Shown piece by piece: positions 30,088-62,454 of a DNA stretch of 64,000 bases (position 1 is its first letter; each line of letters opens with the position of its first letter). The DNA lies in contig NZ_QCYG01000010.1 of assembly GCF_003072065.1 (NCBI RefSeq), positions 62,001 to 126,000 on the forward strand, given 5' to 3'. This stretch comes from Thalassorhabdomicrobium marinisediminis (lineage in GTDB: Bacteria > Pseudomonadota > Alphaproteobacteria > Rhodobacterales > Rhodobacteraceae). The position numbers and the translations under genes are program-made. The notes beneath the pieces are model-generated. The model was given only the letters and a program-made list of their open reading frames with translations, did no database searches and was not told the origin of the DNA.

Positions 30088-30135
30088 ACCCCCTACGACT
30101 TATGCAACCGATTTGAAGGAAAAGGGAGAATTTCC

Positions 30136-35414: not shown

Positions 35415-35500
35415 GATTTCCTCCCTAGGAATAAATGTGTGACGGCTGATTGGCAGGCAGCTCCCCAGCGTCGCCCCGAATGAAAGCATGAGTCGTTTTA

Positions 35501-35520
35501 TTTTGCAACCGGTTGCAAAA
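35501..35520. promoter_or_regulatory. LacI-family operator TTTTGCAACCGGTTGCAAAA (site 1)
   Basis: A perfect 20-bp palindrome in the divergent region between the ABC binding-protein gene (86 bp away) and the lacI-family gene (83 bp away). The GCAAnCGnTTGC core is the classical LacI/GalR half-site arrangement. The same core recurs at 39869-39886 in front of iolD. Confidence 0.88.
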
Positions 35521-35603
35521 ATTACTTCGACCGGGCTAGTTTTATTCCATATAAACAGTCGCATTCTCGACCTGTTACCGATTGCACAAAGGAACGCCAT
35601 GTC

Positions 35604-39886: not shown

Positions 39887-39958
39887 ATGGTTATCGTGAG
39901 ATTCGCAGACACGCAAGACGCAATCGTTTTGCCGGGCTTAAATCGGAGAGCTATCACC

Positions 39959-42810: not shown

Positions 42811-42820
42811 GGATATTTCC

Positions 42821-43672: not shown

Positions 43673-43727
43673 CGCGCTTGGCCCCAAGCAATGCCCCCCG
43701 GGGGCCGCAACAGACTGGAAACTGCCG

Positions 43728-44561: not shown

Positions 44562-44562
44562 A

Positions 44563-45594: not shown

Positions 45595-47106
45595 TTAGGC
45601 CCAGACGTTGGGCAGCAGCGCGTCGGGGACGTTCTGGAAGCTGACGGGGCGCAGGAAGCGCCGGATCGCCATCGTGCCGACCGAGGTGCCCGAGAAGGTG
45701 GCCGCAGGGTAAGGGCCACCGTGGACCATGGCATCGCTGACTTCGACCCCCGTGGGGAAGCCGTTGACCAGCAGACGCCCGGCCTTGCGTTCCAGCACGG
45801 TGACAAGGCGCTTGGCCGCGTCGGTGTCGGCGTCGTCCATGTGCAGCGTGCAGGTGAGCTGCCCGGCGAGGTCTTTGGCAAGCTGTTCCATTTCATCCAG
45901 ATCGGCGACACGGACGACGATGCCCAAAGGCCCGAAGACCTCATGCGACAGGTCAGGGTTCGCGCGCCAGTCGGCGCCGCTGGTCACGAAAAGCGCAGGT
46001 GCCGCCGTGCGGCCGTCGCACTCTTTCGACAGGACGCTTTCAACCGCGCCCGTGGCAACCACGGCGTCGCGGCCGCTGCGATAGGCTTCGGCGATCCCGT
46101 CGGTGAGCATGGTCTGGCCGTCAACCTCACCCAGAGCTTTGGCAGCGGCGTCGATGAAGGCGTCCGCATCCGGCCCGTCCAGCACCACGGCCACGCCGGG
46201 ATTGGTGCAGAACTGGCCCACGCCCATGGTCAGCGATCCGGCCCAGCCTTCGCCCAAGGCGGCGGCGCGGTCGGACATGGCATTCGGCAGCAGGAACATC
46301 GGGTTCACGGACCCCAACTCACCGAAGAAGGGGATCGGCTCGGGGCGGGCGGCGCAAAGGTCATAGAGCGCACGGCCACCGCGCAAGGAGCCGGTGAAGC
46401 CAGCCGCGCGGATCAGCGGGTGTTCCACCAGCGCCTTGCCCACGTCGAGCGATCCGCCGTGCACCATCGAGAAGGTGCCCGGATGCAGGTCGCATTTGGC
46501 CACGGCGGCGGTGATCGCATCGGCCACAAGCTCAGCGGTCGCGGGGTGGGCTTCGTGGCCCTTCACGACGACGGGACAGCCCGCTGCCAATGCCGACGCC
46601 GTGTCGCCGCCTGCGGTGGAGAAGGCCAGCGGGAAGTTCGAGGCCCCAAAGACCGCGACCGGGCCGATGGGCCGCTGGATCAGCTTCAAGTCCGGACGCG
46701 GCAGAGGTTCGCGGTCGGGCAGGGCGGTGTCATGCCGCCGGTCGAGGTAGTCGCCCTTGCGGATGTGATCGGCGAACATGCGCAACTGGCCGATGGTGCG
46801 GCCGCGCTCGCCCTCAAGGCGGGCGGTGGGAAGGCCGGTTTCGGCGTGGCCCATCTCGGTGATTTCGGCGCCGCGGGCGTCGATCTCGTCGGCGATGGTC
46901 TCAAGGAAGCGGGCGCGGGTCTCGGTGTCGGTGTTGCCGTAGTCCACAAAGGCCGCATCCGCCGCGCGCACGGCGCGGTCGATCAGCTCGGGGTTGCCGG
47001 CGGCAAAAGAGTGGCCCTCCCCCGCGATGGGCGAGGAGGTGAACCGCGCGTCTGCGTCGATCTGTTCGCCTGCGATCAGGTGTTTGCCGTGGGGCGTATA
47101 GGTCAT
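45595..47106 (-). CDS. 2-oxoglutarate semialdehyde dehydrogenase (aldehyde dehydrogenase family)
   Basis: Oxidises 2,5-dioxopentanoate to 2-oxoglutarate, last step of hydroxyproline degradation. The 503-residue aldehyde dehydrogenase has a candidate cofactor-site Lys in PVVVKGHEAHP (about K182), general base E263 in FFGELGSVNP and nucleophile C300 in VGQFCTNPG. The form FGASNFPLAFSTAGGDTASA and the FGELGSVNP motif are characteristic of the KGSA-dehydrogenase branch. It is the third gene of the operon oxidase-epimerase-dehydrogenase, 50 bp after the epimerase gene. The product 2-oxoglutarate enters the TCA cycle. Confidence 0.9.
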   Translation of the reverse strand: MTYTPHGKHLIAGEQIDADARFTSSPIAGEGHSFAAGNPELIDRAVRAADAAFVDYGNTDTETRARFLETIADEIDARGAEITEMGHAETGLPTARLEGERGRTIGQLRMFADHIRKGDYLDRRHDTALPDREPLPRPDLKLIQRPIGPVAVFGASNFPLAFSTAGGDTASALAAGCPVVVKGHEAHPATAELVADAITAAVAKCDLHPGTFSMVHGGSLDVGKALVEHPLIRAAGFTGSLRGGRALYDLCAARPEPIPFFGELGSVNPMFLLPNAMSDRAAALGEGWAGSLTMGVGQFCTNPGVAVVLDGPDADAFIDAAAKALGEVDGQTMLTDGIAEAYRSGRDAVVATGAVESVLSKECDGRTAAPALFVTSGADWRANPDLSHEVFGPLGIVVRVADLDEMEQLAKDLAGQLTCTLHMDDADTDAAKRLVTVLERKAGRLLVNGFPTGVEVSDAMVHGGPYPAATFSGTSVGTMAIRRFLRPVSFQNVPDALLPNVWA

Positions 47107-47156
47107 GTATCTCTCCTGTTTAGGTCGGATTTCGGGTGGCCCGGGGGCCTATCGTC

Positions 47157-48158
47157 TCAGGTGACGACGAAGCCGTGGGCATAGGGATCACGGTCGTCGA
47201 TGAAAATGGTGTTGATGCCGGTCTGGCGCGCCCACCCCCCGATCGAGGGGATGATCGCATCGCGGTCGCCCACCTTGGCGGCGGCTTCGACGCGGCCCTT
47301 GAACAGGCTGCCGATGATGCTCTCGTGCACAAAATCATCCCCAACCGCAAGCGACCCGCGCGCGGCCAGATGCGCCATGCGCGCCGAGGTGCCGGTGCCA
47401 CAGGGCGAGCGGTCAATCGCCTTGTCGCCGTAGAACACCGCGTTGCGGGCATGGGCGTCGTCCCGCGTGGCCGCGCCGGTCCACAGGATATGCGACAGGC
47501 CGTTGATGGCGGGGTTTTCGGGATGCTCGAAGCTGTAGGCTTCGTTGAGGGCGCGGCGCAGCTTGGGGCTGTAGCCCACAAGCTCTCCGGCGGTGAAATC
47601 GGCCATGTCGCGGAAGTTCTCTTGCGGCTCGACGATGGCATAGAAGTTGCCGCCATAGGCCACATCGACAGTGACTTTGCCCAAGCCTTCGACCTCGGCC
47701 TCAAGCCCTTCGGCATAAAGGAACGCAGGCACGTTGGTCAGGCGGACCTCTTCCACGAAGCGGCCCTCTTGCCGGTATTCGACGGTGACCAGACCGGCGG
47801 GCGTATCTAGGCGCAGCTTGCCCGGCTCACGCGGGGTGACAAGGCCGTTTTCCAGCGCCATGGTGACGGTGCCGATGGTGCCGTGGCCGCACATGGGCAG
47901 GCAGCCCGAAGTTTCGATGAACAGCACGGCGACGTCGCAATCGTCGCGCGTGGGCGGATAGAGGATCGCGCCGGACATCATGTCATGGCCGCGCGGCTCG
48001 AACATCAGGCCGGTGCGGATCCAGTCATATTCGGCAAGGAAATGGGCGCGCTTCTCGATCATGTTGGCGCCCTCAAGGCGGGGGCCGCCCCCCGCCACCA
48101 GCCGCACGGGGTTGCCGCAGGTGTGGCCGTCGAAGCAGGAAAAACTGTGGTTGGTCAT
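47157..48158 (-). CDS. 4-hydroxyproline 2-epimerase (proline racemase superfamily)
   Basis: Interconverts trans-4-hydroxy-L-proline and cis-4-hydroxy-D-proline, first step of the bacterial hydroxyproline pathway. The 333-residue protein has both catalytic cysteines: C90 in MCGHGTIG and C253 in DRSPCGTGTSARMA, the pair required for epimerase/racemase action. Context (D-amino-acid oxidoreductase, deaminase, KGSA dehydrogenase) favours hydroxyproline over proline. It overlaps the oxidoreductase gene by 4 bp. Compare the second family member at 59120-60148, which has Ser/Thr at these positions. Confidence 0.9.
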   Translation of the reverse strand: MTNHSFSCFDGHTCGNPVRLVAGGGPRLEGANMIEKRAHFLAEYDWIRTGLMFEPRGHDMMSGAILYPPTRDDCDVAVLFIETSGCLPMCGHGTIGTVTMALENGLVTPREPGKLRLDTPAGLVTVEYRQEGRFVEEVRLTNVPAFLYAEGLEAEVEGLGKVTVDVAYGGNFYAIVEPQENFRDMADFTAGELVGYSPKLRRALNEAYSFEHPENPAINGLSHILWTGAATRDDAHARNAVFYGDKAIDRSPCGTGTSARMAHLAARGSLAVGDDFVHESIIGSLFKGRVEAAAKVGDRDAIIPSIGGWARQTGINTIFIDDRDPYAHGFVVT

Positions 48159-49402
48159 GGTCTGTCCTTCAAGAAGCGCTGTGGCGCGAATGGTGTCAGG
48201 TCAAGGGCGGCGGGGCGTCCGGCGACCAGATCGGCCACCAGCTCGGCGGTGCCCGCCGATTGGGTCAGCCCCAGATGCCCGTGCCCGAAGGCCAGCACCA
48301 GATCGGGGTGACGCGGGGCCGCGCCGATCACCGGCAGGCTGTCGGGCATGGAGGGCCGGAACCCCATCCACTGCACGCCGCCCGTGGTGTCAAGCTCGGG
48401 CAGGAAATCGCGCGCCTTGTCGAGCAGGATCTGCGCCCGTTTCATGTTCGGCGGCAGGTCCAGCCCGCCCAGTTCAACCGCGCCGCCGACGCGCAGACCG
48501 TCGCCGATGCGGGTCACGACGAAGCCGTGGGACGAGAATGTCACATGGGTGCGCAGATCGAAAGCGCTGGCGGGCAGGGTGGTGTTGTAGCCGCGCTCGG
48601 TCTCCAGCGGGAGCTTGAGGCCGAGGGGCCGCAGCAGGGTGTTGGACTGCGCGCCCGCAGCCAGCACGACCTTGTCGAACTGCGCCGTGCCGCCGTCGTG
48701 CGTCACAGTCACGCCCGGCCCGCTGGTGTCGAGCCCGCGCACCGCCGTTTGCAGAATTTCGCCCCCGCCCGCGACCACGCGTTCGGCCAGCGTCTTGACC
48801 CAAAGCTCCGGATCGGTGGTGTTGAACCAGTCGGGGGTGAACACGGCCGAGGTGAACTGCGGATTGAGGCCGGGCTGCACCTCGCGGATCGCGTCGCGCG
48901 AAGTCAGGGTTTCGAAACGGATGCCCGCGGCGGCGCGTTCGTCCCAGCCCGGTTTGGCAGCGGCCAGTTGGCGCGGGCTGTCGTAGATCTGAAGCTGGCC
49001 CTCGCGGCGGATCAGATCGTGCATGTCGTGCGTGTCGAGCAGCCGGTCGAGCGCCTGTGCGGAGAGTTGCATCATCGCGGCCTGCGCATCCCGCGCGGCG
49101 GCGTAGCGGCGCGGGGTCGAGGCCCCGGCAAAGCGCACAAGCCACGGCAGAAGCTTCAGGGCATAGGCCGGACGGATCGACAGCGGCCCCAAGGGGTCCA
49201 GCAGCCATTTTGGCGCCTGTTTCCAGATGCCCGGGGTGGCCAGCGGGATGATGTCGGCAAAGGCAAAAGCCCCCGCATTGCCGCGCGACGCGCCCTGCGC
49301 CACGCCCTCGGGGTCGAAAAGCGTGACCTGATGCCCGTCGCGCATCAGCGCCTGCGCGGCGCTGACCCCGATCACTCCTGCACCGATAATCCCTATGCGC
49401 AT
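48155..49402 (-). CDS. FAD-dependent D-hydroxyproline dehydrogenase (DadA-like)
   Basis: Predicted to oxidise cis-4-hydroxy-D-proline to 1-pyrroline-4-hydroxy-2-carboxylate. The 415-residue protein has the dinucleotide-binding motif GIIGAGVIGVSAAQAL at the N-terminus. It also shows the DAO/DadA signatures EGVAQGASRGNAGAFAF and, near the end, FGHGHLGLTQSAGTAELVAD. It is the first gene of the minus-strand operon and shares a promoter region, with a TGTCGACA site, with the divergent gntR gene. General D-amino-acid dehydrogenase activity is the alternative. Confidence 0.88.
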   Translation of the reverse strand: MRIGIIGAGVIGVSAAQALMRDGHQVTLFDPEGVAQGASRGNAGAFAFADIIPLATPGIWKQAPKWLLDPLGPLSIRPAYALKLLPWLVRFAGASTPRRYAAARDAQAAMMQLSAQALDRLLDTHDMHDLIRREGQLQIYDSPRQLAAAKPGWDERAAAGIRFETLTSRDAIREVQPGLNPQFTSAVFTPDWFNTTDPELWVKTLAERVVAGGGEILQTAVRGLDTSGPGVTVTHDGGTAQFDKVVLAAGAQSNTLLRPLGLKLPLETERGYNTTLPASAFDLRTHVTFSSHGFVVTRIGDGLRVGGAVELGGLDLPPNMKRAQILLDKARDFLPELDTTGGVQWMGFRPSMPDSLPVIGAAPRHPDLVLAFGHGHLGLTQSAGTAELVADLVAGRPAALDLTPFAPQRFLKDRP

Positions 49403-49452
49403 GGGGCACCTCTCGTCTTCATCGCCAATGTCTTACCGATCCCCACTTTCGG

Positions 49453-49460
49453 TGTCGACA
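49453..49460. promoter_or_regulatory. TGTCGACA operator 1 (gntR / D-hydroxyproline dehydrogenase)
   Basis: An 8-bp palindrome in the divergent promoter region, 50 bp from the oxidoreductase start and 76 bp from gntR. It continues as TGTCGACAGAAATAATAC (49453-49470), which matches 17 of 18 bases of the site at 60230-60247. A second small palindrome GGCAATTGCC lies at 49475-49484. Confidence 0.75.
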
Positions 49461-49536
49461 GAAATAATACATTTGGCAATTGCCCATATGCTCGCTTAAG
49501 ACTTGCAACGAGACTGGTTTTCCACGGGATGGATTG

Positions 49537-50259
49537 ATGAGCACAGCGAGCAGTGTGACTGGAGCAAAAAGCAAGAACGGGCGCAAGCGGGGGTCCGGCG
49601 TCGCCGTGGTCTATGAGACCCTGCGGCGAGAGATTATCGACCTGACGCTGGCCCCGGGCAGCCCCATTGACGAAGTGCAGCTGTCCGAGCGGTTCGAGAT
49701 GTCGCGCACCCCCGTGCGCGAGGCGCTGGTGCGGCTGGCGGCGGAGAACCTGATCACCATCCTGACCAACCGCGCCACGGTCGTCTCGCAGATCGATTTC
49801 GTCAATATGCCGGCGTTTTTCGATGCGCTGACGCTGATGTATCGGGTCACCACGCGGGGCGCGGCGGAAAACCGGACCGAGGCCGATCTGGAAAAGATCC
49901 GCAAGTTGCAGGCCGCGTTCGCGCGCAGCGTCGAATCGAGCGACGCGCTCGAGATGATCTCCACCAACCGCGATTTCCACTACGGGATCGCCGAAGCGGG
50001 GCGGAACAAATATTACATCAACCTGTTCGCGCAGTTGCTGGACGACGGGTTGCGCATCCTGCGGCTGTATTATTCGTCGTTCAACGATGATCTGCCGCCC
50101 CAATATGTGACCGAACACGATGACCTGATCGACGCGATCGCGCGGCAGGATGTCGAAGCGGCCGATAAGCTTGCGCTGGCCCATGCGGACCAGATCGTGA
50201 AGCAGATCCAGTCCTACGTGGCCGCTGACCGCCGCACCAGCACCGGACTTTCGCTTTAG
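49537..50259 (+). CDS. GntR-family (FadR/FCD-type) transcriptional regulator of hydroxyproline use
   Basis: DNA-binding regulator of 240 residues with an N-terminal winged helix (YETLRREIIDLTLAPGSPID, then LSERFEMSRTPVREALVRL) and an all-helical C-terminal FCD sensor domain (for example NRDFHYGIAEAGRNKYY). FCD ligand-binding residues such as the H in RDFHYGIAE and H in VTEHDDLIDAIA are present. The start at 49537 follows GGGATGGA. Its position and the TGTCGACA sites around the region make it the likely regulator of all hydroxyproline operons here, similar in role to HypR of Sinorhizobium. Confidence 0.9.
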   Translation: MSTASSVTGAKSKNGRKRGSGVAVVYETLRREIIDLTLAPGSPIDEVQLSERFEMSRTPVREALVRLAAENLITILTNRATVVSQIDFVNMPAFFDALTLMYRVTTRGAAENRTEADLEKIRKLQAAFARSVESSDALEMISTNRDFHYGIAEAGRNKYYINLFAQLLDDGLRILRLYYSSFNDDLPPQYVTEHDDLIDAIARQDVEAADKLALAHADQIVKQIQSYVAADRRTSTGLSL

Positions 50260-50394
50260 GTCGCCCGCCCGCGCGGGGTATTTCTTACCGCAGATCAAGC
50301 GCTTGGCTCTGGGCGCCCCGATAGGGGCGTGCGGCGATGGGGCGTGTTGCCCGCCGCGCGGGCAAAACGTGATCGACCGTCGCTCTGCTGTGGG

Positions 50395-50432
50395 TTGACA
50401 GAAAATGCAACGCGTATCACACTTGTCGACAA
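50395..50432 (+). promoter_or_regulatory. Promoter candidate with TTGTCGACAA operator 2 (peptide ABC operon)
   Basis: A perfect -35 box TTGACA (50395-50400) is followed after 17 bp by CACACT (50418-50423, a weak -10) and then the palindrome TTGTCGACAA (50423-50432), ending 23 bp before the ATG. A repressor bound here would cover the start site. The rest of the gap 50260-50394 holds two small GC-rich inverted repeats (CCCGCGCGGG at 50268 and CGCCCC/GGGGCG at 50314-50329) that may end gntR transcription. Confidence 0.6.
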
Positions 50433-50455
50433 TGATTACACAAAGGGAGAACTGT

Positions 50456-52204
50456 ATGATCACGTCTTTCCATGGGGCGCGCCGCGCGGCCCTTGCAAGC
50501 ACAGCCGTCGCGCTGGTGATGGCCGGGGCGATGCCCGCTTTGGCGCAGGGGCAGGAAGGCGGCGTTCTGCGCATCCTCGGCTCTGGCGATCTAGGCCGGT
50601 TGGACCCGATGACCGTTGCTACGGTCGGCGACAACAACTTCGTGCGCGCAACAGCCCGCACGCTGATCAGCTACGAAAGCTCGATGGACGAAGACGCGCG
50701 CATCGCGCCCAAGGCGGACCTTGCGACCGAGGTGCCCGAGCCGACCAACGACGGGCTGACCTACACCTTCACCCTGCGCGACGGCATCACATGGGACGCG
50801 CCAGACGGCGCGCGTGACATCGTGGCGGCGGATTTCGAACGCGGCCTCAAGCGAACTTGCAACCCCTCGCTCGGTACGCCGTTCCTGACATACTACGTCT
50901 CGCTCATCGAGGGCATGGATACATTCTGCGACGGCTTCGCCGAAGTCGAGCCGACCGTCGAGGCGATGAAGGACTACATCCAGAACAACGACATTTCCGG
51001 CATCGAAACCCCGGACGAGGACACGGTGGTGTTCAACCTGACCGAAGAGGCGGGCGATTTCATCTACATGCTCTCGCTGTCCGCCGCGGCCCCCGCGCCG
51101 GTCGAGGTTCTGGACTACCTCCCCGACAGCCCCGAATACCGCGAGAACTTCATCTCGTCGGGGCCCTATACGCTGGCCGAGAACATCCCCGACGTGCAGA
51201 CCCGTCTGGTTCGCAACCCGTCGTGGAACGCGGACAGCGACCCGCTGCGCGCAGGCTACGTGGACGAGATCGAGCTGACCTTCGGGCTTCAGGCCGATGC
51301 GGCGATCCAGCAGATTCAGGCCGGTGACGCCGACATGCTCTATGACATCCTTGTGCCACCGGCGCTGATCCCGATGTTGCAGGCCACTGGTGACGACAAG
51401 CTGGTCGCAATCTCGACCGGGCGGACGGCGTTCATCTTCATCAACACCAAATCCCCCAACGTGGACGGGGCCTTGGCCGATGTGCGCGTGCGTCAGGCGA
51501 TCAACTATGCGATCAACAAGGCGGCCGTGGTGCAGCAGCTGGGCGGGCCCTTCGTGGCCGCACCCCAGAACGGGATCTTCGGACCCGGCCTGCTGGGCTA
51601 TCACGATTTCGACCTCTATCCGTCCGAGGATGCAAAGGGCGATCCGGAAAAGGCCCGCGAACTGTTGGCCGAAGCCGGATACCCCGATGGCATCAGCCTG
51701 AAGATGCCGTTCCGCAACCTCAACAACGAAAGCGCCATCGCGCAGACGTTGCAGGCGAGCTTTGCCGAGGCCGGAATCGAGATCGAGCTGATCCCCGTCT
51801 CTGCGGCGGACTACTACTCCAAGTATATGACCAACCCGCAGAACACGACCGACGGCGCATGGGACATCGCCCCGGTGAGCTGGTCGCCCGACTGGGCCGG
51901 CGGGGCCGCGCGTTCGGTCTTCCAGCCGCAGTTCAGCTATGACGGCCGGCACCAGACCTACAACTACACCGACTACAACAACGATGAGGCGAACGCCCGC
52001 GCCAAGGAAGCGATCAACGCCACCTCCGCCGAAGAGGCCGCGCGCCTCTGGGGTGAGGTCGACGAGATCGTGATGGCCGATGCGCCGGTGGCGCCGTTCA
52101 TCTCGCAGAACGTGGTGGTGTATCACAGCGACGCGGTCGAGAACTTCGAGCCCTACGCCCTGGGCGCGAACGGCGACTGGACCAACGTCTGGCTCGATCG
52201 CTGA
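50456..52204 (+). CDS. Peptide ABC transporter periplasmic binding protein (SBP family 5)
   Basis: Receptor for oligo- or dipeptides in the periplasm. From the ATG at 50456 (GGGAGA 5 bases upstream) the protein is 582 residues with a signal peptide (h-region AALASTAVALVMAGAMPALA). The family-5 fold is evident: LTYTFTLRDGITWDAPDGA, NPSLGTPF, INYAINKAAVVQQLGGP, ELLAEAGYPDGI. The length exceeds DppA (~530), as in many actinobacterial and alphaproteobacterial peptide receptors. The neighbours (proline peptidases, hydroxyproline enzymes) suggest Pro/Hyp-containing peptides. A terminator-like hairpin follows. Confidence 0.9.
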   Translation: MITSFHGARRAALASTAVALVMAGAMPALAQGQEGGVLRILGSGDLGRLDPMTVATVGDNNFVRATARTLISYESSMDEDARIAPKADLATEVPEPTNDGLTYTFTLRDGITWDAPDGARDIVAADFERGLKRTCNPSLGTPFLTYYVSLIEGMDTFCDGFAEVEPTVEAMKDYIQNNDISGIETPDEDTVVFNLTEEAGDFIYMLSLSAAAPAPVEVLDYLPDSPEYRENFISSGPYTLAENIPDVQTRLVRNPSWNADSDPLRAGYVDEIELTFGLQADAAIQQIQAGDADMLYDILVPPALIPMLQATGDDKLVAISTGRTAFIFINTKSPNVDGALADVRVRQAINYAINKAAVVQQLGGPFVAAPQNGIFGPGLLGYHDFDLYPSEDAKGDPEKARELLAEAGYPDGISLKMPFRNLNNESAIAQTLQASFAEAGIEIELIPVSAADYYSKYMTNPQNTTDGAWDIAPVSWSPDWAGGAARSVFQPQFSYDGRHQTYNYTDYNNDEANARAKEAINATSAEEAARLWGEVDEIVMADAPVAPFISQNVVVYHSDAVENFEPYALGANGDWTNVWLDR

Positions 52205-52221
52205 TCTGCCCTGACGGACAG

Positions 52222-52250
52222 GGGCGCGCCGCACGATCTGCGGCGCGCCC
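52222..52250 (+). terminator. Strong hairpin after the peptide binding-protein gene
   Basis: GGGCGCGCCGCA (52222-52233) and TGCGGCGCGCCC (52239-52250) form a perfect 12-bp stem with a 5-base loop, followed by TTTCTCTT. It lies inside the predicted transporter operon, between the receptor and ATPase genes, and is probably a partial terminator or mRNA stabiliser favouring receptor expression. Confidence 0.8.
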
Positions 52251-52292
52251 TTTCTCTTCCCCCTTCCCTCGAAGCAGCCCCAAGGACCCGCC

Positions 52293-54139
<1,847 letters not shown>

Positions 54140-54140
<1 letters not shown>

Positions 54141-55132
54141 TGGGCCAGTTCCAGACCCGCAACCAGAAAGCCACCACCGAAGCCGAAACCGCCGAGGCCG
54201 GGGACGCGCCCGTGGTCGTGCAACGCTCTTCGGCGTCACTGACCTTCCGGCGGCTGGCCCGCGATCCGGCGAGCGTCATCGCCTTTGTCTTCATCATCGC
54301 GCTGGTGGCCTTTGCCGTGGGCGCGCCGCTGGTCGAAGCCTGGACCGGCCACGGCCCGATCGAGCAATACCGCGAAACCGCCCTGTCGCCGGTGGGGCTG
54401 CCCGTGGGGCCGAACGCCGAGTTTCTGTTGGGCGGCGACCAGTTGGGCCGCGACGTGTTGGTGCGCATCGCCTATGGCGCGCGCGTGTCGCTGCTGGTGG
54501 GCGTGCTCGCCTCTCTGCTGGCGGCGACGATTGGCGTCACCGTGGGCATGTTGGCCGGGTATTTCGGCGGCTGGGTCGACGTGGTGCTGGGCCGGCTGAT
54601 GGATCTGGTGATGTCGGTGCCGTTCCTGCTGTGCGCGCTGGCGCTGGTGTCGGTGTTCGGGCCGTCCTTGCCGCTGTCGGTCTCGGTCATCGTGTTCTTC
54701 AGCTGGACGACCATTGGCCGGGTGATCCGCGCCGAGACCACATCACTCGCCCGGCGCGAATTCGTGCAGGCGAGCCGCTCGCTGGGGGCGGGGCACGGCT
54801 ACATCCTGTTGCGGGACATCCTGCCCAACCTTGCGCTGACGATCATCATCTACACGACCATGCTGATCCCCAACGCCATCGTGTTCGAGGCGACGCTGTC
54901 ATACCTGGGCATGGGGATCGTGCCGCCGACCCCGTCCTGGGGCGGGATGCTGGCCGAGGCGGGCGCGAACTCGATCTATCTGGTGGCGTGGTGGCTGGTG
55001 GTCTTCCCCGGTCTGGCGCTGCTCGCCTCAACACTGGCGTTCAACATTCTGGGCGACGGGCTGCGCGACGCGCTGGACCCCTCCGCCCGTGGCCGCGCGG
55101 TGCTGCGCAAGAAGAAAAAGACGAAGGGGTAA
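54140..55132 (+). CDS. Peptide ABC transporter permease (DppC-like)
   Basis: Inner-membrane permease of 330 residues with the DppC/OppC N-terminal domain (FRRLARDPASVIAFVFI). The coupling loop with AETTSLARREFVQASRSLGA and the LGMGIVPPTPSWGGMLAEA segment are also typical. A hydrophilic N-terminus of about 35 residues and a basic tail (RKKKKTKG) flank the membrane part. The ATG overlaps the ATPase stop (TGATG); a GTG one codon earlier is possible. Confidence 0.9.
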
Positions 55133-55135
55133 GCC

Positions 55136-56089
55136 ATGATTTCGTTTCTTATCAAACGGTTGACCTTCGGTCTGTTCGTGCTTCTGTCGCTGAGCCTGTT
55201 CGTGTTCTTCCTGTTCTTCGTGGCCCCCGGCGATCCGGCCCGCGTGGTTGCCGGCGACAAGGCCCCCGAGGCCCAGCTTCAGCAAGTGCGCGAGAATCTT
55301 GGCCTCGACCGGCCCATGCCCGAGCAATACCTGCGCTTCGTGACCCGCGCCGCGCAGGGCGATCTGGGCTTTTCCTATCGCAACCGGCAGCCGGTCACCG
55401 ATCTGATCGTGCGGCGCATTCCGGTCACGGTGTCGCTGGTGTTTGGCGGCGTGCTGTTCTGGCTGGCGCTGGGGGTCCCCATCGGCATCATCTCGGCGCG
55501 CAATCCGGGGACTTGGAAGGACAGGCTGGGGCAGGTGTTCATCCTGTTGGGCCTGTCGTTTCCGACCTTCGTTCTGGGGATGCTGGCCCTTTATACGCTG
55601 TATTTCCTGCCGCGCACCGCAGGCTTCACCCTGTTCCCGCCCGGAGGCTACGCGCCGTTTCTGGAGAACCCCGCCAAATGGGCCTGGCATCTGGCCCTGC
55701 CCTGGACCACGTTGGCGCTGGTCGTGGCGGCGATCTATGCACGCCTGACGCGGGGCCAGCTTCTGCAGGTGCTGGGCGAGGATTACATCCGCACCGCCCG
55801 CGCCAAGGGCCTGACCGAACGGCGGGTCGTCTATCGCCACGGCATGCGCGCGACGCTGACGCCGCTGGTCACGCAACTGGGGGCCGATATCGCGGTGCTT
55901 CTGGGCGGGGTGATCGTCATCGAACAGGTCTTCGGCTTGCAGGGGGTCGGCGCGCTGGCCGTGCAGGCGGTGCAGAACCAGGACCGGCCGATCATCATCG
56001 GCGTGGTGATGCTGGGCGGGCTGTTCATTGTCACCACCAACCTGATCGTCGATCTGCTTTACGCAGCCCTTGATCCACGGGTCAGGTAA
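55136..56089 (+). CDS. Peptide ABC transporter permease (DppB-like)
   Basis: Second membrane permease of the peptide importer, 317 residues with about six membrane segments. The DppB/OppB features are present: MISFLIKRLTFGLFVL at the N-terminus, LGLDRPMPEQYLRFV, the coupling loop DYIRTARAKGLTERRVVYRH and IEQVFGLQGVGALAVQAV. In this operon the DppC-type gene precedes the DppB-type gene, the reverse of dppABCDF. It starts 3 bp after the DppC-like stop. Confidence 0.9.
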   Translation: MISFLIKRLTFGLFVLLSLSLFVFFLFFVAPGDPARVVAGDKAPEAQLQQVRENLGLDRPMPEQYLRFVTRAAQGDLGFSYRNRQPVTDLIVRRIPVTVSLVFGGVLFWLALGVPIGIISARNPGTWKDRLGQVFILLGLSFPTFVLGMLALYTLYFLPRTAGFTLFPPGGYAPFLENPAKWAWHLALPWTTLALVVAAIYARLTRGQLLQVLGEDYIRTARAKGLTERRVVYRHGMRATLTPLVTQLGADIAVLLGGVIVIEQVFGLQGVGALAVQAVQNQDRPIIIGVVMLGGLFIVTTNLIVDLLYAALDPRVR

Positions 56090-56119
56090 CTTTCACTTTC
56101 ATCACAGGCAGGCAAACCG

Positions 56120-57400
56120 ATGCAACGCATTCCCGGCTATGACACGCGCGACCGGATGGTCGATGTTCCCCTGAATTGGGCCAAACCCGACGGCGCGACG
56201 ATCGAGGTCTTCGCGCGGGAGGTGACGGCCCCGGGCCGGATGCAGGAGGACCTGCCGGTGCTCGTGTTCCTGCAAGGCGGGCCGGGGGGCAAATCCCCGC
56301 GCCCCAACCGCGGCCCGGCGTGGCTTGACGTGGCCACAAAGCGCCACCGTGTGCTGTTGCTGGACCAGCGCGGCACCGGGCGCTCGACGCCCGTGCAGGG
56401 CCGCCAGTTCGCAGCGATGGGCGCGGACGAGGGCGCGGATTACCTGTCGTGCCTGCGCGCGGACAGCGTGGTGAAGGATTGCGAACACATCCGCAAGACG
56501 CTGTTTGACGGCAAGCCATGGTTCACGCTGGGGCAGAGCTACGGCGGGTTCCTGACGCTGTCTTATCTGTCGCATGCGCCCGAAGGGCTGGCGGGCTGTT
56601 ACGTCACCGGCGGCATGGCGGGGATCAAGGCCGATGCGGCGACGATCTACCGCCACACTTACCCGCGCGTGGCCCACAAGAACGCGCTGTACTTCGACCG
56701 CTACCCCGATGATCGGGCCAAGGTCGACCGCCTCGCCGACCGGCTGGCGCGGGGCGACGTGCGCTTGCCCGATGGGGACGTGCTGACCGTGCGGCGGCTG
56801 CAATACCTCGGGATGGAACTGGGCACCGTCGAAGGGTTCGAGACGTTGCACTGGCTGCTCGACGAGGCCTTTGCCGCCGATGGTGAGGTGTCGGACAGTT
56901 TTCTGGGCACCGTGCGCGGCATGACCTCGTTCGACGACAACCCCCTGTTCGCGGCGATCCACGAAGGGATCTACGGGCAGGACGGCGCGCGCACGGGCTG
57001 GGCGGCCGAGCGGGTGCTGTCCGAGTTTCCCGCCTTTGACGCCGCCGCCCGCCCGCTGCTGTTCACTGGCGAGATGATCTATCCTTGGATGTTCGACGAC
57101 ATCCGCGCGTTGCGGCCCTTCAAACCCGCCGCCGAAGCGCTGGCGCAGCGCCCGCTGGATGCGCCGCTTTACGATCACGCACAGCTGGCCGAGAACACCG
57201 TGCCGGTCTGGGCGGCGGTCTATGCCGACGACATGTATGTGGACATGGACCTGTCGATGCAGACCGCCCGCGACGTGGGCAATGTGCGCATCTGGCTGAC
57301 CAACGAATACGAACACAACGGGCTGCGCCACAGCGGCCGCGTTCTGGAACATCTCTTCGCGATGGAGGACTCTCTTGATGGACACGCATACCTTCGCTGA
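56120..57400 (+). CDS. Proline iminopeptidase-like alpha/beta hydrolase (peptidase S33 family)
   Basis: Predicted cytoplasmic serine peptidase of 426 residues that removes N-terminal proline (or hydroxyproline) from peptides. The catalytic serine is S140 in GQSYGGFLTL. The oxyanion-hole segment is LQGGPGGKSP with the family motif LDQRGTGRST. Asp (in YADDMYVDM) and His (in EHNGLRHSG) candidates lie near the C-terminus. There is no signal peptide. It follows the importer genes by 30 bp and overlaps the M24 peptidase gene by 23 bp, indicating a joint role in peptide use. Confidence 0.88.
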   Translation: MQRIPGYDTRDRMVDVPLNWAKPDGATIEVFAREVTAPGRMQEDLPVLVFLQGGPGGKSPRPNRGPAWLDVATKRHRVLLLDQRGTGRSTPVQGRQFAAMGADEGADYLSCLRADSVVKDCEHIRKTLFDGKPWFTLGQSYGGFLTLSYLSHAPEGLAGCYVTGGMAGIKADAATIYRHTYPRVAHKNALYFDRYPDDRAKVDRLADRLARGDVRLPDGDVLTVRRLQYLGMELGTVEGFETLHWLLDEAFAADGEVSDSFLGTVRGMTSFDDNPLFAAIHEGIYGQDGARTGWAAERVLSEFPAFDAAARPLLFTGEMIYPWMFDDIRALRPFKPAAEALAQRPLDAPLYDHAQLAENTVPVWAAVYADDMYVDMDLSMQTARDVGNVRIWLTNEYEHNGLRHSGRVLEHLFAMEDSLDGHAYLR

Positions 57401-59153
57401 CCACAGCACCCGTCTTGCGCGTCTGCGCGACTGGATCGCGGGGCAGGGGCTGGATGGCATGATCCTGACCACCGCCGACGCCTTCCAGAACGAGGATGCG
57501 CCGGAGCATGACCGCGATATTGCCTGGCTCACCGGGTTTACCGGCTCGCTCGCCCATGCGCTGGTGATGGCGGACGGCGCAGTCTTCCTTGTCGACGGGC
57601 GCTACGGCATTCAGGCGCAGCAAGAGGTGGACGGGGCCGACTGGACCTTCGGCCACATTCACGATGCCCCGCTGGGGGGCTGGCTGCGCGACCGCGCCGC
57701 AGGCTGCACCATCGGCTACGATCCCATGCGCTGGAGCGTGGCGCAGATGCAGGGTCTGCGTGACAAGGCGGGGACGGCGACGCTAACCCCCTGCGACGAC
57801 CCGTTCGATGCGGTCTGGAGCGACCGACCCGCGATGCCGCAGGCGCCGGTGCGCGCCTTGCCCGAAGCCGAAGCGGGCCGCAGTGCGGGCGACAAGCTGC
57901 AGTGGCTGGCGCAGGAACTCGATCAACAGGGCGCCGGCGTCTGGGTCGAAACCCGGCCCGACAACATCGCGTGGCTGTTCAACATGCGCGGCGGGGACGT
58001 GGCGATGAACCCGCTGCCTTTGTCCTTTGCCACGGTCACCGCCGAAGGCGCGGCCCATTGGTTCATTGACCCCGCCAAGTGCAAGGACATCCAGCCCGAG
58101 GGCGTGACCCTTCACCCGATCGAAGCCTTCCTGCCGTGGCTGAAAGAGCAGACCGCGGCCTGCGCCTTCGACCCCGCTTTTACGCCGGATGCGGTCGAAC
58201 AGGCGCTTGGCGAAAGCCGTCATGCGAAAGGCATCGTGACCATCGAAAAGGCGCTGAAGAGCCGCGCCGAGCTTGACGGGTTCCGCCGGGCGCATCTGGA
58301 TGACGCCGTGGCGATGGCGCATTTCGGCCATTGGCTGTCAGAGGTGATGCAGGGCGAGGCTCTGCCGGACGAGACCGCCGCCGCCGTGCAGCTTGAGGCG
58401 TTCCGCGCCAAGTCGGAGGACTATCAAGAGCCGAGCTTCGTCACCATCGCCGCCACGGGCGGCAATGCGGCCATGTGCCATTACCACCCGCCCGCGCAAG
58501 GTTCAGCCCGTCTTGCGCGCGACGCCGTGTTCCTTTGCGATTCCGGCGGGCAATACACCGGCGGCACCACCGATGTGACGCGGACCTATGCCTTCGCCCC
58601 GGTGAGCGCCGAGGTGCGCCGCATCGCCACGGCGGTCCTGCGCGGATTCATCGCCCTGTCGCGCGCGCAATTCCCTGACGGGACCATGCCGCACCAGATC
58701 GACGCGCTGGCGCGGGCACCCCTTTGGGAGATGGGCCTGGATTACGATCACGGCACCGGCCACAACGTCGGGCATAATTTGCTGGTGCACGAACACCCGC
58801 ACCGGATCGGCCAGAAACCCAACCCGTTCGCGCTGCGCGCGGGCCATGTCCTCACCCTTGAGCCGGGGTTTTACGAGGCGGACGTCTGGGGCATTCGCGT
58901 GGAAAATCAGGTCGAGGTGGTCGCACGGGATGCGGGCTTCATCGGGTTCGATGCGATGACGCTGGTGCCGATTGATCTGGGTCTATACGACCTCGACACG
59001 CTGGACGCCGGGGAGCGGGACTGGATCGACAGCTATCACGCGCAGGTGCGCGAGGCGGTTGCACCGCTCCTGTCCGGAGCGGTGCGGGAGTGGTTGATCG
59101 CGGCGACCGCGCCGCTGGATCAGCGCGCGCCCCAAGTGTCGGACAAGCGGTAA
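57378..59153 (+). CDS. Xaa-Pro aminopeptidase (M24B family)
   Basis: Metallopeptidase cleaving the bond between an N-terminal residue and a following proline or hydroxyproline. The 591-residue size equals the three-domain XPNPEP1-like form, not the 440-residue PepP. Metal ligands are visible in [20 protein letters not shown] (two Asp), [17 protein letters not shown] (His), TLEPGFYE (Glu) and RVENQVEV (Glu). The ATG at 57378 has GGAGG nine bases upstream. It overlaps the end of the convergent dehydratase-like gene by 34 bp. Cytoplasmic. Confidence 0.93.
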
Positions 59154-60148
59154 CCGCGCGGCCATGGGTCATCGGGGTCCAGCATGTGCTGGTGGGTCCC
59201 GGTGATCCAGCCCCGGCCCGAAATTTCGGGGCGAATGCCGGTTTTGTCGCCGATCTTCGTTTCGCCCAGAATGCGGCCCGAGAAGGTGGAGCCGATCAGC
59301 GATTCCGCCGTGAGCCGGTCGTCCGGCCCCATCTCGCCCCGCGCCGACAGCAGCGCCATCCGCGCAGAAAGCGCCGTGCCCGTGGGCGAGCGGTCGACCT
59401 TGCCCGGCCGGATCGCCACCGCCTGCCGGCTGCGCATGCCGTTTTCGTCGTGGCCCATGGGACCAGCGAACAGGCAGAAAGAATAATGGTTCCAGTCCGG
59501 GTTCGTCGGGTGCTGGAAGGGCAGGGCCTTGGTCGCGGCTTCGGTGATCTTCACGCCCATGCGGGCGATCTTGTGCGCCTCATCCTCGACCAGCGACAAG
59601 CCAAGCGCCTCGGCGTCCACCACTACGAAGCTGTCGCCGCCATAGGCCGTGTCGACGGTCAGCGTGCCGATCCCCTCAACCTCGAGCGTCGCATCCAGCC
59701 AGTCCGCATAGCTGGGCAGGTTCTCGACGAAGATGCGCTGCGCCTTGCCGCCGGAACATTCCGCGCGGACCTGAACCAGACCGCCCGGCGCTTCGAGCAC
59801 CATTTCCGTCACCGGTTCCTGCATCGGCACCAGCCCGCTGTCGAGCAACACGGTCGAGACGCAGATGCTGTTGGAGCCGGACATCGGCGGCGTGTCCTCG
59901 GGCTCCATGATGATGAAGGCGGCATCGGCGCGGGGGTCTTTCGGCGGCACCAAAAGGTTCACGTGCCGGAAGACACCGCCGCGCGGCTCATTGAGGACGA
60001 AATCGCGCAGCGTGCCGTCCCGCTCGATCCAGCGGGACTGCTCCCAGATGGTGTCACCGGGGGGCGGGGCCACGCCGCCGACGATGACGTCGCCGACTTC
60101 GCCTTCCGCATGGGCGGATATGATATGAACGATTTTGCTGCTGCGCAT
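59120..60148 (-). CDS. Proline racemase superfamily enzyme with Ser/Thr pair, probable trans-3-hydroxyproline dehydratase
   Basis: The 342-residue protein has the proline racemase fold ([15 protein letters not shown] and [14 protein letters not shown]). The two catalytic cysteines of racemases are replaced by S90 ([11 protein letters not shown]) and T256 (DRSPTGTA). Thr at the second position is the known mark of trans-3-hydroxy-L-proline dehydratases, which keep a Cys at the first position; Ser there is unusual. The divergent neighbour is a pyrroline-2-carboxylate reductase-like gene, exactly the enzyme needed for the dehydratase product. RBS GGAGGA is 5 bases upstream. Epimerase activity is unlikely without cysteines. 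Confidence 0.82.
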
Positions 60149-60185
60149 GGGGTCCTCCGACTATAGCCCGTGGACCGGCGGCACC

Positions 60186-60222
60186 GGGCCGATCCTATTG
60201 GTCGGGACCCTAGGATGGCCCC
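60186..60222. repeat. Long imperfect hairpin in the divergent dehydratase/reductase promoter region
   Basis: GGGCC-g-ATCCTA (60186-60197) pairs with TAGGAT-GGCCC (60211-60221), an 11-bp stem with one bulged G. Inside the loop GGTC and GACC (60200-60208) can pair as well. It lies 38 bp upstream of the minus-strand start at 60148 and just left of the TGTCGACA site. It may be a leader-RNA structure or a protein-binding site; no T-run is present, so it is not a typical terminator. Confidence 0.4.
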
Positions 60223-60229
60223 CTGAGGT

Positions 60230-60247
60230 TGTCGACAGAAAAAATAC
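60230..60247 (+). promoter_or_regulatory. TGTCGACA operator 3 with conserved GAAAAAATAC extension
   Basis: TGTCGACAGAAAAAATAC matches the gntR-upstream element at 49453-49470 in 17 of 18 bases. Its end of the octamer is 78 bp before the reductase ATG, nearly the same distance as in front of gntR (76 bp). TCGACA inside the palindrome could double as a -35 box with CTGAAT 17 bp downstream. Confidence 0.75.
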
Positions 60248-60315
60248 TAGCTTGCTGAATGGGCCCCGTCCGCCTATCCAGATTGCGATGTATCCCACGG
60301 GTAAAGGAGGGTCGG

Positions 60316-61335
60316 ATGTCTCATGAGTTGGTATCGGTCGCAGCGTTGACCGAGCGGGTCGAAGCGATTTTCGTCAAGGCCGGATTTTCGGCGGATCACG
60401 CGGCCACCCTCGGCCGGGCGATCGTCGCCGGTGAGCGGGACGGCTGCAAGTCCCACGGCGTTTACCGCATCGCGGGCTGTCTGCGCACGCTTGAGGCGGG
60501 CAAGGTCGTGCCCGACGCCGATCCGGTGGTGGCCGAGCCGGATGGCGCAATCATCCGGGTGGACGCCAAGGGCGGCTTCTCGAACCTTGCCTTCGCGCGC
60601 GGGCTGCCGGTGCTGGCCGAGCAAGCGCGCAAGAGCGGGCTGGCGGCGCTGGTGATCAACGACTGCGTGCATTTCGCCGCCCTTTGGCCCGAGATCGAAG
60701 ACATCACCGCCGAAGGGCTGGCCGGGATGGCCATGTGCCCCAGCTACGCCACCGTCGCGCCGGTGGGCGGCACCGAACCGTTGCTGGGCACGAACCCCTT
60801 TGCCTTCGGCTGGCCGCGTGAAGGCAAAAACCCTTACGTCTTCGACTTCGCCACCAGCGTCGTCGCGCGGGGCGAGATCGAGCTTTACCGCCGCGCCGGT
60901 GATCCCCTGCCCGAAGGCTGGGCCTTGGACGCGGACGGAAAGCCCACCACGAGTCCCGAAGCCGCGCTGGACGGGGCGATGCTGCCCTTTGGCGGGCACA
61001 AGGGGTCGGCAATCTCGACGATGATCGAACTGCTGGCGGGCGCGTTGATCGGGGATTTTACCTCGGACAAGGCGCTGGAGTGGCTGGGCACGACGACCAT
61101 CGCGCCGCGTCATGGGGAGCTGATCCTGGCTTTCGATCCCGAACGCTTCGCCGGCGGCCGCGCCGATCCGCGCGCAACGGCGGAAGCCTTCATCGGTGCA
61201 ATCGAAGGGCAGGGCGCGCGCCTGCCCGGTCAACGCCGTTTCGCGGCCCGCGCCGAGGCGCTGCGCGACGGGATTCCGCTGACCAAGGCCGAGCTGGACG
61301 AACTCGACCGGCTGGAAAAAGAAGGCGCGGCCTAA
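60316..61335 (+). CDS. Delta1-pyrroline-2-carboxylate reductase-like enzyme (malate/L-lactate dehydrogenase family 2)
   Basis: NAD(P)H-dependent imine reductase of the Ldh2/MDG family, 339 residues, predicted to turn pyrroline-2-carboxylate into L-proline. Family motifs: GERDGCKSHGVYRI near residue 40 (catalytic His in SHG), NDCVHFAALWPEIE, GTNPFAFGWP and ATSVVARGEIELY, then MLPFGGHKGSAISTMIELLAGAL. AAAGGAGGG is correctly spaced before the ATG at 60316. Paired divergently with the Ser/Thr dehydratase, it completes trans-3-hydroxyproline to proline. Ureidoglycolate or malate dehydrogenase activity is less likely in this setting. It ends at a strong terminator. Confidence 0.87.
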   Translation: MSHELVSVAALTERVEAIFVKAGFSADHAATLGRAIVAGERDGCKSHGVYRIAGCLRTLEAGKVVPDADPVVAEPDGAIIRVDAKGGFSNLAFARGLPVLAEQARKSGLAALVINDCVHFAALWPEIEDITAEGLAGMAMCPSYATVAPVGGTEPLLGTNPFAFGWPREGKNPYVFDFATSVVARGEIELYRRAGDPLPEGWALDADGKPTTSPEAALDGAMLPFGGHKGSAISTMIELLAGALIGDFTSDKALEWLGTTTIAPRHGELILAFDPERFAGGRADPRATAEAFIGAIEGQGARLPGQRRFAARAEALRDGIPLTKAELDELDRLEKEGAA

Positions 61336-61374
61336 GCGGCCACGCCTTTTCGATCATTCCGTACAGGAAAATGG

Positions 61375-61404
61375 ACCGGACACCCGCAGGGGTGTCCGGT
61401 TTTT
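61375..61404 (+). terminator. Rho-independent terminator of the reductase gene
   Basis: ACCGGACACC (61375-61384) pairs with GGTGTCCGGT (61391-61400), followed directly by TTTTT (61400-61404). A further C-G pair can close the loop. It is the clearest intrinsic terminator in the window and sits just before the stop codon of the convergent DapA-like gene at 61408. Confidence 0.92.
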
Positions 61405-61407
61405 GCG

Positions 61408-62346
61408 TCAGGCCGCTTTCGACCACTCCGCATACCATGTCTTGAACAGGTCATACTGCGCATCGGCAAAGGCACGCTGCGCGTCGCTCAGCTCGTCTGT
61501 CTCGTTGAAGTGCAGGCGGTATTCCTCGTCCCCGCCGCGCACCATCAGGTGCTTGTAGTAGAGGACAAGGTCGCCTTCTTCGTCGAACTTGGACAGGACG
61601 TAAAGCGCCTGCTCAAGCTCTTGCGCGCGGCGGCGGGCGTCCACGTCGCCCTTGGCAGCTTTCTGCGACAGCTCGACCAGATGCAGCACTTCCTTGGGCA
61701 GCACGTTGCCGATGCCGGTGATCGCGCCGGTTGCACCGCAGTTGACGAAGCCGTGGAACACGGTGGTGTCCACGCCGACCATCAGCGTCACGTCGGGGTT
61801 GCCGCTCGAGATGTGCTCGGCCGCATAGGTCAGGGCCGCCTTGCCGCCGAATTCCTTGAAACCGGCAAGGTTGGGGTGCTCGCTCTTGAGGGCGAAGAAC
61901 AGGTCCGCGCCGGTGGAGAACCCGTAGTGGGGCGAGTTGTAGATGACGGCGGGCAGGTCAGGCGCGGCCGAGAGGATCGCCTTGAAGTGCGCCTTCTGGG
62001 CCGGGATCGACGCGCCGCGCGACATCACGCGAGGAATCAGCATCAGGCCTGCAGCGCCGACGCGGGCGGCGTGGGCAGCGTGTTCGGCGGCGATCTTGGT
62101 GTTCACGGCACCGGTGCCGACAACGACCTTGAGGCCCGCGTTCACCAGCGCTTCCACGCCTTGCATGCGCTCTTCGTCCGTCAGCAGGGGCCAGTCGCCC
62201 ATGGAGCCGCAATAGACGACAGCGGACATGCCGGCGTCCACAAGCTCACGCCCCTTGCGGACGAGCGCGTCAAAATCGGGGGTGCGATCCTCTTTGCAGG
62301 GGGTCATCAGGGCTGGCATGGTGCCAGTGAAAACTGCGTTGTCCAT
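61408..62346 (-). CDS. DapA-family deaminase, probable 1-pyrroline-4-hydroxy-2-carboxylate deaminase
   Basis: Class I aldolase-fold enzyme of 312 residues. In hydroxyproline catabolism a DapA-family member deaminates and dehydrates 1-pyrroline-4-hydroxy-2-carboxylate to 2-oxoglutarate semialdehyde. The Schiff-base lysine is K164 in AGFKEFGGKA and the catalytic tyrosine Y136 in VIYNSPHYG. The N-terminus reads FTGTMPALMTPC as in the hydroxyproline branch rather than true DapA. AAAGGA precedes the ATG. A TGTCGACA site lies 101 bp upstream. Other DapA-like lyases are possible, but no other gene here supplies this step. Confidence 0.87.
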   Translation of the reverse strand: MDNAVFTGTMPALMTPCKEDRTPDFDALVRKGRELVDAGMSAVVYCGSMGDWPLLTDEERMQGVEALVNAGLKVVVGTGAVNTKIAAEHAAHAARVGAAGLMLIPRVMSRGASIPAQKAHFKAILSAAPDLPAVIYNSPHYGFSTGADLFFALKSEHPNLAGFKEFGGKAALTYAAEHISSGNPDVTLMVGVDTTVFHGFVNCGATGAITGIGNVLPKEVLHLVELSQKAAKGDVDARRRAQELEQALYVLSKFDEEGDLVLYYKHLMVRGGDEEYRLHFNETDELSDAQRAFADAQYDLFKTWYAEWSKAA

Positions 62347-62446: not shown

Positions 62447-62454
62447 TGTCGACA
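62447..62454. promoter_or_regulatory. TGTCGACA operator 4 (deaminase gene)
   Basis: The same octamer palindrome, 101 bp upstream of the deaminase ATG in the 183-bp gap 62347-62529. Read on the minus strand, TCGACA could act as a -35 box with TATATG 18 bp downstream as -10. It extends the predicted GntR regulon to this gene. Nothing else was recognised in the gap. Confidence 0.7.

Follow-up and report, generated by a model that had tools for sequence, protein, structure and literature searches.

A probably plasmid-borne gene island of Thalassorhabdomicrobium marinisediminis predicted to import proline/hydroxyproline peptides and to degrade both hydroxyproline isomers

In the analysed DNA of Thalassorhabdomicrobium marinisediminis (contig NZ_QCYG01000010.1, positions 62,001 to 126,000; a stretch of 64,000 bases, hereafter the window, whose numbering is used below), an island of 13 genes at 45595-62346 is predicted to import short peptides rich in proline (Pro) and hydroxyproline (Hyp), such as those of collagen, to cut them, and to degrade both Hyp isomers under a GntR regulator, a reading to which we give a probability of about 0.75. 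Most work on the breakdown of Hyp uses the free amino acid, and in nature much Hyp comes bound in peptides. The importer and the peptidases most likely belong to the Hyp regulon of the island, as judged from the conservation of the block, its linkage to Hyp genes, a palindrome shared among their promoters and an aspartate kept in the receptor. With this regulon evidence, the island becomes more than a list of neighbours.

All 13 genes named in the initial annotation of this DNA are open frames in the list of open reading frames, and their families were confirmed by searches with Pfam and NCBIfam profiles, the NCBIfam scan covering ten proteins (Table 1). A curated NCBIfam cut-off was passed by two of the ten. 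The annotated 4-hydroxyproline epimerase (gene at 47157) scored 603.9 bits against NF010578 (cut-off 376), and motif location and alignment placed its catalytic pair at Cys90 and Cys253. The protein annotated as a dehydratase-like homologue of proline racemase (gene at 59120) scored 619.4 bits against NF047722 (cut-off 550), with Ser90, Asn93 and Thr256 located in its sequence. The Ser/Thr dehydratase B9K4G4 is described with the same residues in the available part of its report (PMC4113996), its structure 4k7g matched the island protein with 499.7 bits, and compared with this cluster 3 trans-3-hydroxyproline dehydratase, as there described, the positions of the three residues are identical, with no difference at them.

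The aldehyde dehydrogenase, the FAD-dependent dehydrogenase and the DHDPS-family protein fell into the expected families, and the exact names given to them, 2-oxoglutarate semialdehyde dehydrogenase, D-hydroxyproline dehydrogenase and deaminase, derive from the neighbouring genes, not from a curated cut-off. The best solved relative of the aldehyde dehydrogenase was 3v4c (728 bits), and its NCBIfam table comprised the best 25 of 38 families; for the DHDPS-family gene the best solved relatives were 5czj, 4mpq and 2hmc, deposited as dihydrodipicolinate synthases. The predicted reductase was nearest to delta1-piperideine-2-carboxylate reductase (1wtj/2cwf/2cwh, 249 bits). By sequence, the island enzymes fit complete routes for trans-4-hydroxyproline and trans-3-hydroxyproline.

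Two further enzymes are predicted proline peptidases. The M24 enzyme has the three-domain build of the APP1 type with four Pfam domains and matched Xaa-Pro aminopeptidase 1 (3ctz) with 304 bits; the motifs of the two align, and its metal-ligand motifs, which we take to carry the metal-binding residues, were located. The alpha/beta hydrolase had been labelled proline iminopeptidase-like, a label that did not hold: its scores were below every proline-iminopeptidase cut-off (TIGR01249, 35.4 against 259.75 bits; TIGR01250, 36.1 against 167.65; NF045948, 37.3 against 500), and its close solved relative was Arabidopsis AT3g61540 (354 bits). AT3g61540 is presumably a prolyl aminopeptidase, and our literature search listed no paper naming it; a specificity of the hydrolase for imino acids is suggested by its family. 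By eye, neither peptidase has an evident signal peptide, so that peptides would have to enter the cell whole before these enzymes act.

The importer is built as in Dpp/Opp systems, with an SBP_bac_5 receptor, two BPD_transp_1 permeases and two ATPase domains with oligo_HPY. Asp479 of the receptor aligned with Asp408 of Escherichia coli DppA, the residue that we assume to hold the amino group of the peptide, and was invariant in the 30 receptors aligned, those of the window and of 29 of 40 related loci; the identity of DppA to the receptor was only 26%. The nearest solved relative was 2wok (174 bits; 217 with a profile), an oligopeptide-binding protein of clavulanic acid biosynthesis. The island receptor is of the same family as 2wok and DppA and retains the aspartate of DppA. 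A close relative of the receptor was present in one of 19 genomes of the genus, where all candidates were scored and seven other genomes had relatives of only 27-29% identity. When the best three to four candidates per genome were scored, one of the 292 genomes of the order and one of the 385 of the class had a close relative, which each time was the own genome; a positive control with all candidates scored was recovered in 10 of 10 cases. Given this rarity, the island looks accessory.

A scan of a collection of 84,980 species for the receptor yielded 40 loci in 39 genomes. L036 is identical to L039, leaving 39 distinct loci, to which the counts below refer (all 40 in brackets). By name, most of the genomes belong to Rhodobacterales, Devosia or rhizobia, and a few are Actinobacteria or bins; the receptors are 47-97% identical, and some of the stretches end at contig ends (e.g. 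L020, L041). The identical pair is a 21.7 kb stretch with importer and Hyp genes on two contigs of one Celeribacter ethanolicus assembly, which may be duplicated in the genome itself or only through an error of assembly.

Among the genes compared, the commonest companions of the importer were the two predicted proline peptidases. The hydrolase accompanied it at 34 of 39 loci (35 of 40), the aminopeptidase at 33 (34) and both at 31 (32); at 24 (25) the hydrolase was followed directly by the aminopeptidase on the same strand, and elsewhere the aminopeptidase gene was inverted upstream or missing. Linkage to Hyp genes was also frequent, a proline-racemase-family gene being found at 16 of 39 loci (17 of 40) against 0.38 expected from genome sizes and family counts, computed for all 40. 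Limimaricola cinnabarinus (L005) has all 13 genes in the order of the window, the last one truncated where the fetched stretch ends, and Aliiroseovarius (L019) has 11 of the 13 in that order, the reductase and the deaminase not being found in the fetched stretch. The 4-hydroxyproline genes precede the importer on the same strand in Celeribacter, in L022 and seven Rhizobium loci the dehydratase gene immediately precedes it, and other racemase-family members are nearby in three Devosia loci (L018, L021, L040) and L043. In both Cohaesibacter genomes (L052, L055), the hydrolase gene stands outside the importer block, beside the epimerase in the Hyp locus. A member of the racemase family was detected in 38 of the 39 genomes with the block. 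In the window's order, 132 of 292 genomes had one that passed the cut-off, and 147 had one at E 0.001; the contrast is confounded by taxonomy, as most block genomes belong by name to another order.

The third line of evidence is the palindrome TGTCGACA, found by reading the four promoter gaps of the island together with one match, TTGTCGACAA, of a GntR-type motif. The window contains four copies, one per gap and none outside them, although the gaps total 680 bases, or 1.06% of the window; at least four copies anywhere arose in one of 100 shuffles of the window. The GntR-type motif itself, TTGTATACAA, was rejected, with two matches against a shuffle mean of 3.23. A looser 15-base form of the palindrome had seven matches with at most two mismatches (shuffle mean 1.34), two of them outside the island. 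Among the related loci, TGTCGACA stood within 330 bases before the receptor gene at 20 of 39, where about 1.2 would be expected. In 23 genomes the importer stretch contains no racemase-family gene; for 19 of them, some of the loci elsewhere that hold such genes were examined, and in eight of the 19 the palindrome was present both before the receptor and at the separate Hyp locus (L006/L046, L010/L051, L012/L052, L014/L054, L015/L055, L020/L056, L023/L057 and L038/L061), the second copy preceding a regulator, deaminase-like or epimerase gene. In L016/L062 and L017/L064, a palindrome lies just ahead of the dehydratase gene.

One GntR regulator had been annotated, and the protein indeed carries Pfam GntR and FCD domains; the palindromes are shared by four gaps, including that of its own gene, and the pairing of this regulator with the palindromes is predicted from the sequence. 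A relative of at least 55% identity was found in 33 of the 37 importer genomes searched (two Brucella genomes were left out) and was absent from those of L011, L037, L041 and L043. GTCGAC fits the consensus of the FadR subfamily as given in the available part of PMC4494728, where the usual GT-AC distance is three bases, compared with two in GTCGAC. As separate observations, a second contig of this genome has five copies of TGTCGACA in a span of 8 kb (L079, 3077-11055), and another conserved stretch, CAATTTCTTTTGCANNGGTTCAANTTTTG, is common to L025, L027, L029, L030 and L033, which have no TGTCGACA upstream of the receptor gene; it is perhaps a candidate site of another regulator.

Several observations weigh against a Hyp-specific regulon or against peptides as its cargo. 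Genome-wide, TGTCGACA has 43 copies against nine for the reversed control; four are in the island and 39 outside, so that the octamer is not sufficient to define the regulon. It was missing within 330 bases of the receptor gene at 19 of 39 distinct loci, namely those of Rhizobium, Shinella, Mesorhizobium and Celeribacter and L022, L024, L037, L041 and L043; as most of the palindrome-less genomes hold the regulator, the control is not universal. Paired sites of this kind were missing in nine of the 19 genomes whose importer and Hyp genes are separate. L024 and L025 carry the palindrome at the Hyp locus and not at the importer, and no clear site was found at the racemase-family loci of L007 and L009. 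For L014/L054, what follows the second site is no more than a distant deaminase relative (29%). L038 has deaminase and reductase relatives beside the importer and L023 a regulator copy, so that separation is incomplete in these two. A racemase-family gene was not present in the fetched stretch at 23 of 39 distinct loci, and in Agrobacterium L007 the sole family member found is distant (38%) and lies elsewhere. The loci are related by descent, and their counts are thus not independent events. Between the Hyp genes and the importer of Celeribacter there is a terminator-like stem (L036, 9798-9832; L011, 9790-9822), and a single operon running from the Hyp genes through the importer was dropped for these genomes in view of this stem and a gap of about 200 bases. 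As to the receptor, DppA is far behind 2wok as a solved relative (64-98 bits) and heme-binding proteins are among the profile matches, so that its close relatives do not reveal the ligand; it also fell short of the curated receptor families (DppA, GsiB, NikA and others), with 85.5 bits against 594 for GsiB and 64 against 1005 for DppA.

The strongest alternative is that importer and peptidases form a general scavenging block for X-Pro and Pro-X peptides that stands beside Hyp genes since both supply proline metabolism, with Hyp peptides as incidental substrates. The 23 loci whose fetched stretch has no racemase-family gene accord with it, proline peptidases by themselves are no pointer to Hyp, and, since the product of the reductase is L-proline, both feeds meet. 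The nearby racemase-family gene at 16 loci, the palindrome before the receptor at 20 and the presence of the racemase family in 38 of 39 block genomes, even if the comparison with the order is one between mostly different orders, argue for a closer tie to Hyp. We regard this alternative as doubtful; it overlaps with a Hyp-peptide regulon, and both can be partly true. Far less probable is an importer of free Hyp or of a derivative (e.g. N-methylated), with the peptidases serving internal protein turnover. The island holds no second importer gene and its receptor matches no curated peptide-receptor family, as this would have it; however, the receptor, the oligo_HPY ATPase and the OppC/DppB-type permeases are of the peptide/nickel importer type, the aspartate aligned with that of DppA is invariant among the aligned receptors, and the commonest companions of the importer are predicted proline peptidases. 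A chance neighbourhood, in which an ordinary Dpp-type importer lies inside a plasmid Hyp cluster, was rejected as highly improbable: SBP_bac_5 receptors are common, though the close relative is rare, but the linkage recurs in several lineages with differing gene orders, at 16 of 39 loci against about 0.4 expected, and palindromes are shared in eight of 19 genomes with separated genes.

In the favoured reading of a Hyp-peptide regulon, the receptor encoded at 50456 would bind the free amino end of Pro/Hyp peptides and so capture them in the periplasm, and the permease pair with the fused ATPase would bring them into the cytoplasm. There, the Xaa-Pro aminopeptidase would take off the residue preceding the imino acid (X-Pro/Hyp bonds), and the alpha/beta hydrolase would free N-terminal Pro or Hyp. 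Trans-4-hydroxyproline would pass through the epimerase, the D-hydroxyproline dehydrogenase, the deaminase and the aldehyde dehydrogenase to 2-oxoglutarate, and trans-3-hydroxyproline through the dehydratase and the reductase to L-proline. The GntR regulator encoded at 49537 would bind the four promoter-gap copies of TGTCGACA and probably act as a repressor that a Hyp metabolite releases, and collagen, rather than another Pro/Hyp-rich protein, is the presumed main source of the peptides. The annotated use of peptides taken up whole is partly supported by the conserved block, its Hyp linkage, the palindrome and the want of evident signal peptides, whereas the imino-acid specificity of the hydrolase, on which it also drew, is an assignment by family.

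The balance leans slightly towards a wider proposal, namely that the receptor group is an undescribed ABC receptor subfamily for Pro/Hyp peptides and forms with the peptidases a portable cassette, partly under HypR-type control, that moves between Rhodobacterales and Rhizobiales (incomplete in a few Actinobacteria), is at least sometimes plasmid-borne and would give access to collagen fragments left by the community.

Table 1. Genes of the island and copies of the shared palindrome, in window coordinates.
Feature	Position	Strand	Basis or remark
Aldehyde dehydrogenase, predicted 2-oxoglutarate semialdehyde dehydrogenase	45595..47106	-	Pfam Aldedh
4-hydroxyproline 2-epimerase	47157..48158	-	NF010578 over cut-off; Cys90/Cys253
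Predicted FAD D-hydroxyproline dehydrogenase (DadA-like)	48155..49402	-	Pfam DAO; substrate from context
Palindrome TGTCGACA	49453..49460		Gap between dehydrogenase and regulator
GntR/FCD regulator, HypR-type	49537..50259 (from ATG)	+	Pfam GntR + FCD
Palindrome TGTCGACA within TTGTCGACAA	50424..50431		24 bases before receptor start
Peptide-type receptor (SBP_bac_5)	50456..52204	+	Pfam; Asp479 aligned with DppA Asp408
Fused double ABC ATPase (DppD-DppF type)	52293..54140	+	Two ABC_tran stretches + oligo_HPY
Permease, OppC/DppC type	54137..55132	+	BPD_transp_1, OppC_N
Permease, OppB/DppB type	55136..56089	+	BPD_transp_1 + BPD_transp_1_N
Alpha/beta hydrolase (S33-like), predicted prolyl aminopeptidase	56120..57400	+	GQSYGG at residue 138
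Xaa-Pro aminopeptidase, M24	57375..59153	+	Creatinase_N, Creatinase_N_2, Peptidase_M24, Peptidase_M24_C
Trans-3-hydroxyproline dehydratase	59120..60148	-	NF047722 over cut-off; PDB 4k7g
Palindrome TGTCGACA	60230..60237		Between dehydratase and reductase
Predicted pyrroline-2-carboxylate reductase, Ldh_2 family	60316..61335 (from ATG)	+	Pfam Ldh_2
DHDPS-family gene, predicted deaminase	61408..62346	-	Pfam DHDPS; function by context
Palindrome TGTCGACA	62447..62454		100 bases before deaminase start

The replicon had been called plasmid-like, and the genes around the window's left end agree with this. Just left of the window, the 127,696-base contig carries a repC-type gene (RP-C, 106.1 bits, over the cut-off), a ParB/RepB-type gene spans the left edge (ParB_N 48.9 bits, over the cut-off; RepB 25.1, under 30), and no tRNA gene was found in the 64 kb. 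By these replication and partition genes, the island is probably plasmid-borne. In a plasmid collection, no record matched 80% of the island at a single place, and the only proline-racemase-family genes found in the own genome were the two of the island. Left of the window, the translations suggest a polar-amino-acid-type ABC importer with receptor, permease and ATPase (L078, 2056-4307, +), adjoined on the same contig by aminotransferase-like and RpiR-like genes. Within the window, genes for a TPP enzyme, a PfkB kinase, KduI/IolB, a class II aldolase and GFO/IDH/MocA proteins (39887-45549, +; 34455-36242, -), with a Peripla_BP_4 protein not far from the KduI/IolB run, look like a system for the use of inositol or a similar sugar on the same plasmid. 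The plasmid contig further holds genes for a PQQ-propeller dehydrogenase-type protein and a cytochrome c protein (18414-20957, +; 26912-27925, +), a DctM and DctP TRAP transporter (28540-31203, +) and a LigD-type DNA ligase/primase (6032-8503, -).

If the favoured reading is true, it provides a concrete, testable ABC receptor for Hyp peptides and a function for a receptor group that now has generic names only, it places the use of 3- and 4-hydroxyproline under one regulator, and it helps to mark marine and soil alphaproteobacteria that can feed on fragments of the collagen or plant-wall type. The suggestion in the initial annotation that the integrated system may be undescribed was too strong, as the same 13 genes occur in Limimaricola cinnabarinus and 11 in Aliiroseovarius, and near-equivalents with other transporters appear in the available parts of published work (PMC5343134, PMC7883544). 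An account of the ABC form in alphaproteobacteria was not among the matches listed in our literature search, in which subscription papers were sparsely covered.

As far as the available part of PMC5343134 describes them, the predicted HypR regulons of Alteromonadales and Aeromonas comprise proline (di)peptidases and the di/tripeptide permease PdtP, with secreted collagenases in those of Alteromonadales, mostly Shewanella. A 4-hydroxyproline route with a GntR regulator and predicted proline peptidases are common to these regulons and the island. Different from the regulons as described there, the island has an ABC importer with its own receptor, a 3-hydroxyproline branch and a pair of M24 and alpha/beta-hydrolase enzymes, is alphaproteobacterial and probably plasmid-borne, and has no secreted protease named among its 13 genes. 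The collagen cluster of Colwellia BB5, of about 21 kb, likewise joins uptake, proline peptidases and the 4-hydroxyproline route in the accessible text of PMC7883544; it is there equipped with a secreted M9 collagenase, MFS and TonB transporters and a P5C reductase/ornithine cyclodeaminase, whereas the island has an ABC importer, a 3-hydroxyproline dehydratase/reductase branch and no collagenase among its genes. A search of the own genome for an M9 collagenase had no match, but neither had its control, so that it carries no weight. In Streptomyces coelicolor, HypR is a repressor of the Hyp operon, with a collagenase listed in its regulon (PMC6608401, in part), and peptidase and ABC families lie near a Bacilli cluster of the racemase family (PMC4113996, in part). 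The hyp genes of Sinorhizobium meliloti, in the portion of PMC5343134 at hand, combine a GntR regulator with the four-step 4-hydroxyproline route as the island does, and their transporter HypMNPQ imports Hyp, whereas the island has a peptide-type importer with peptidases. The island is thus made of known parts in a new arrangement, in which the ABC importer, the scope of two isomers and the plasmid setting differ from the published parallels.

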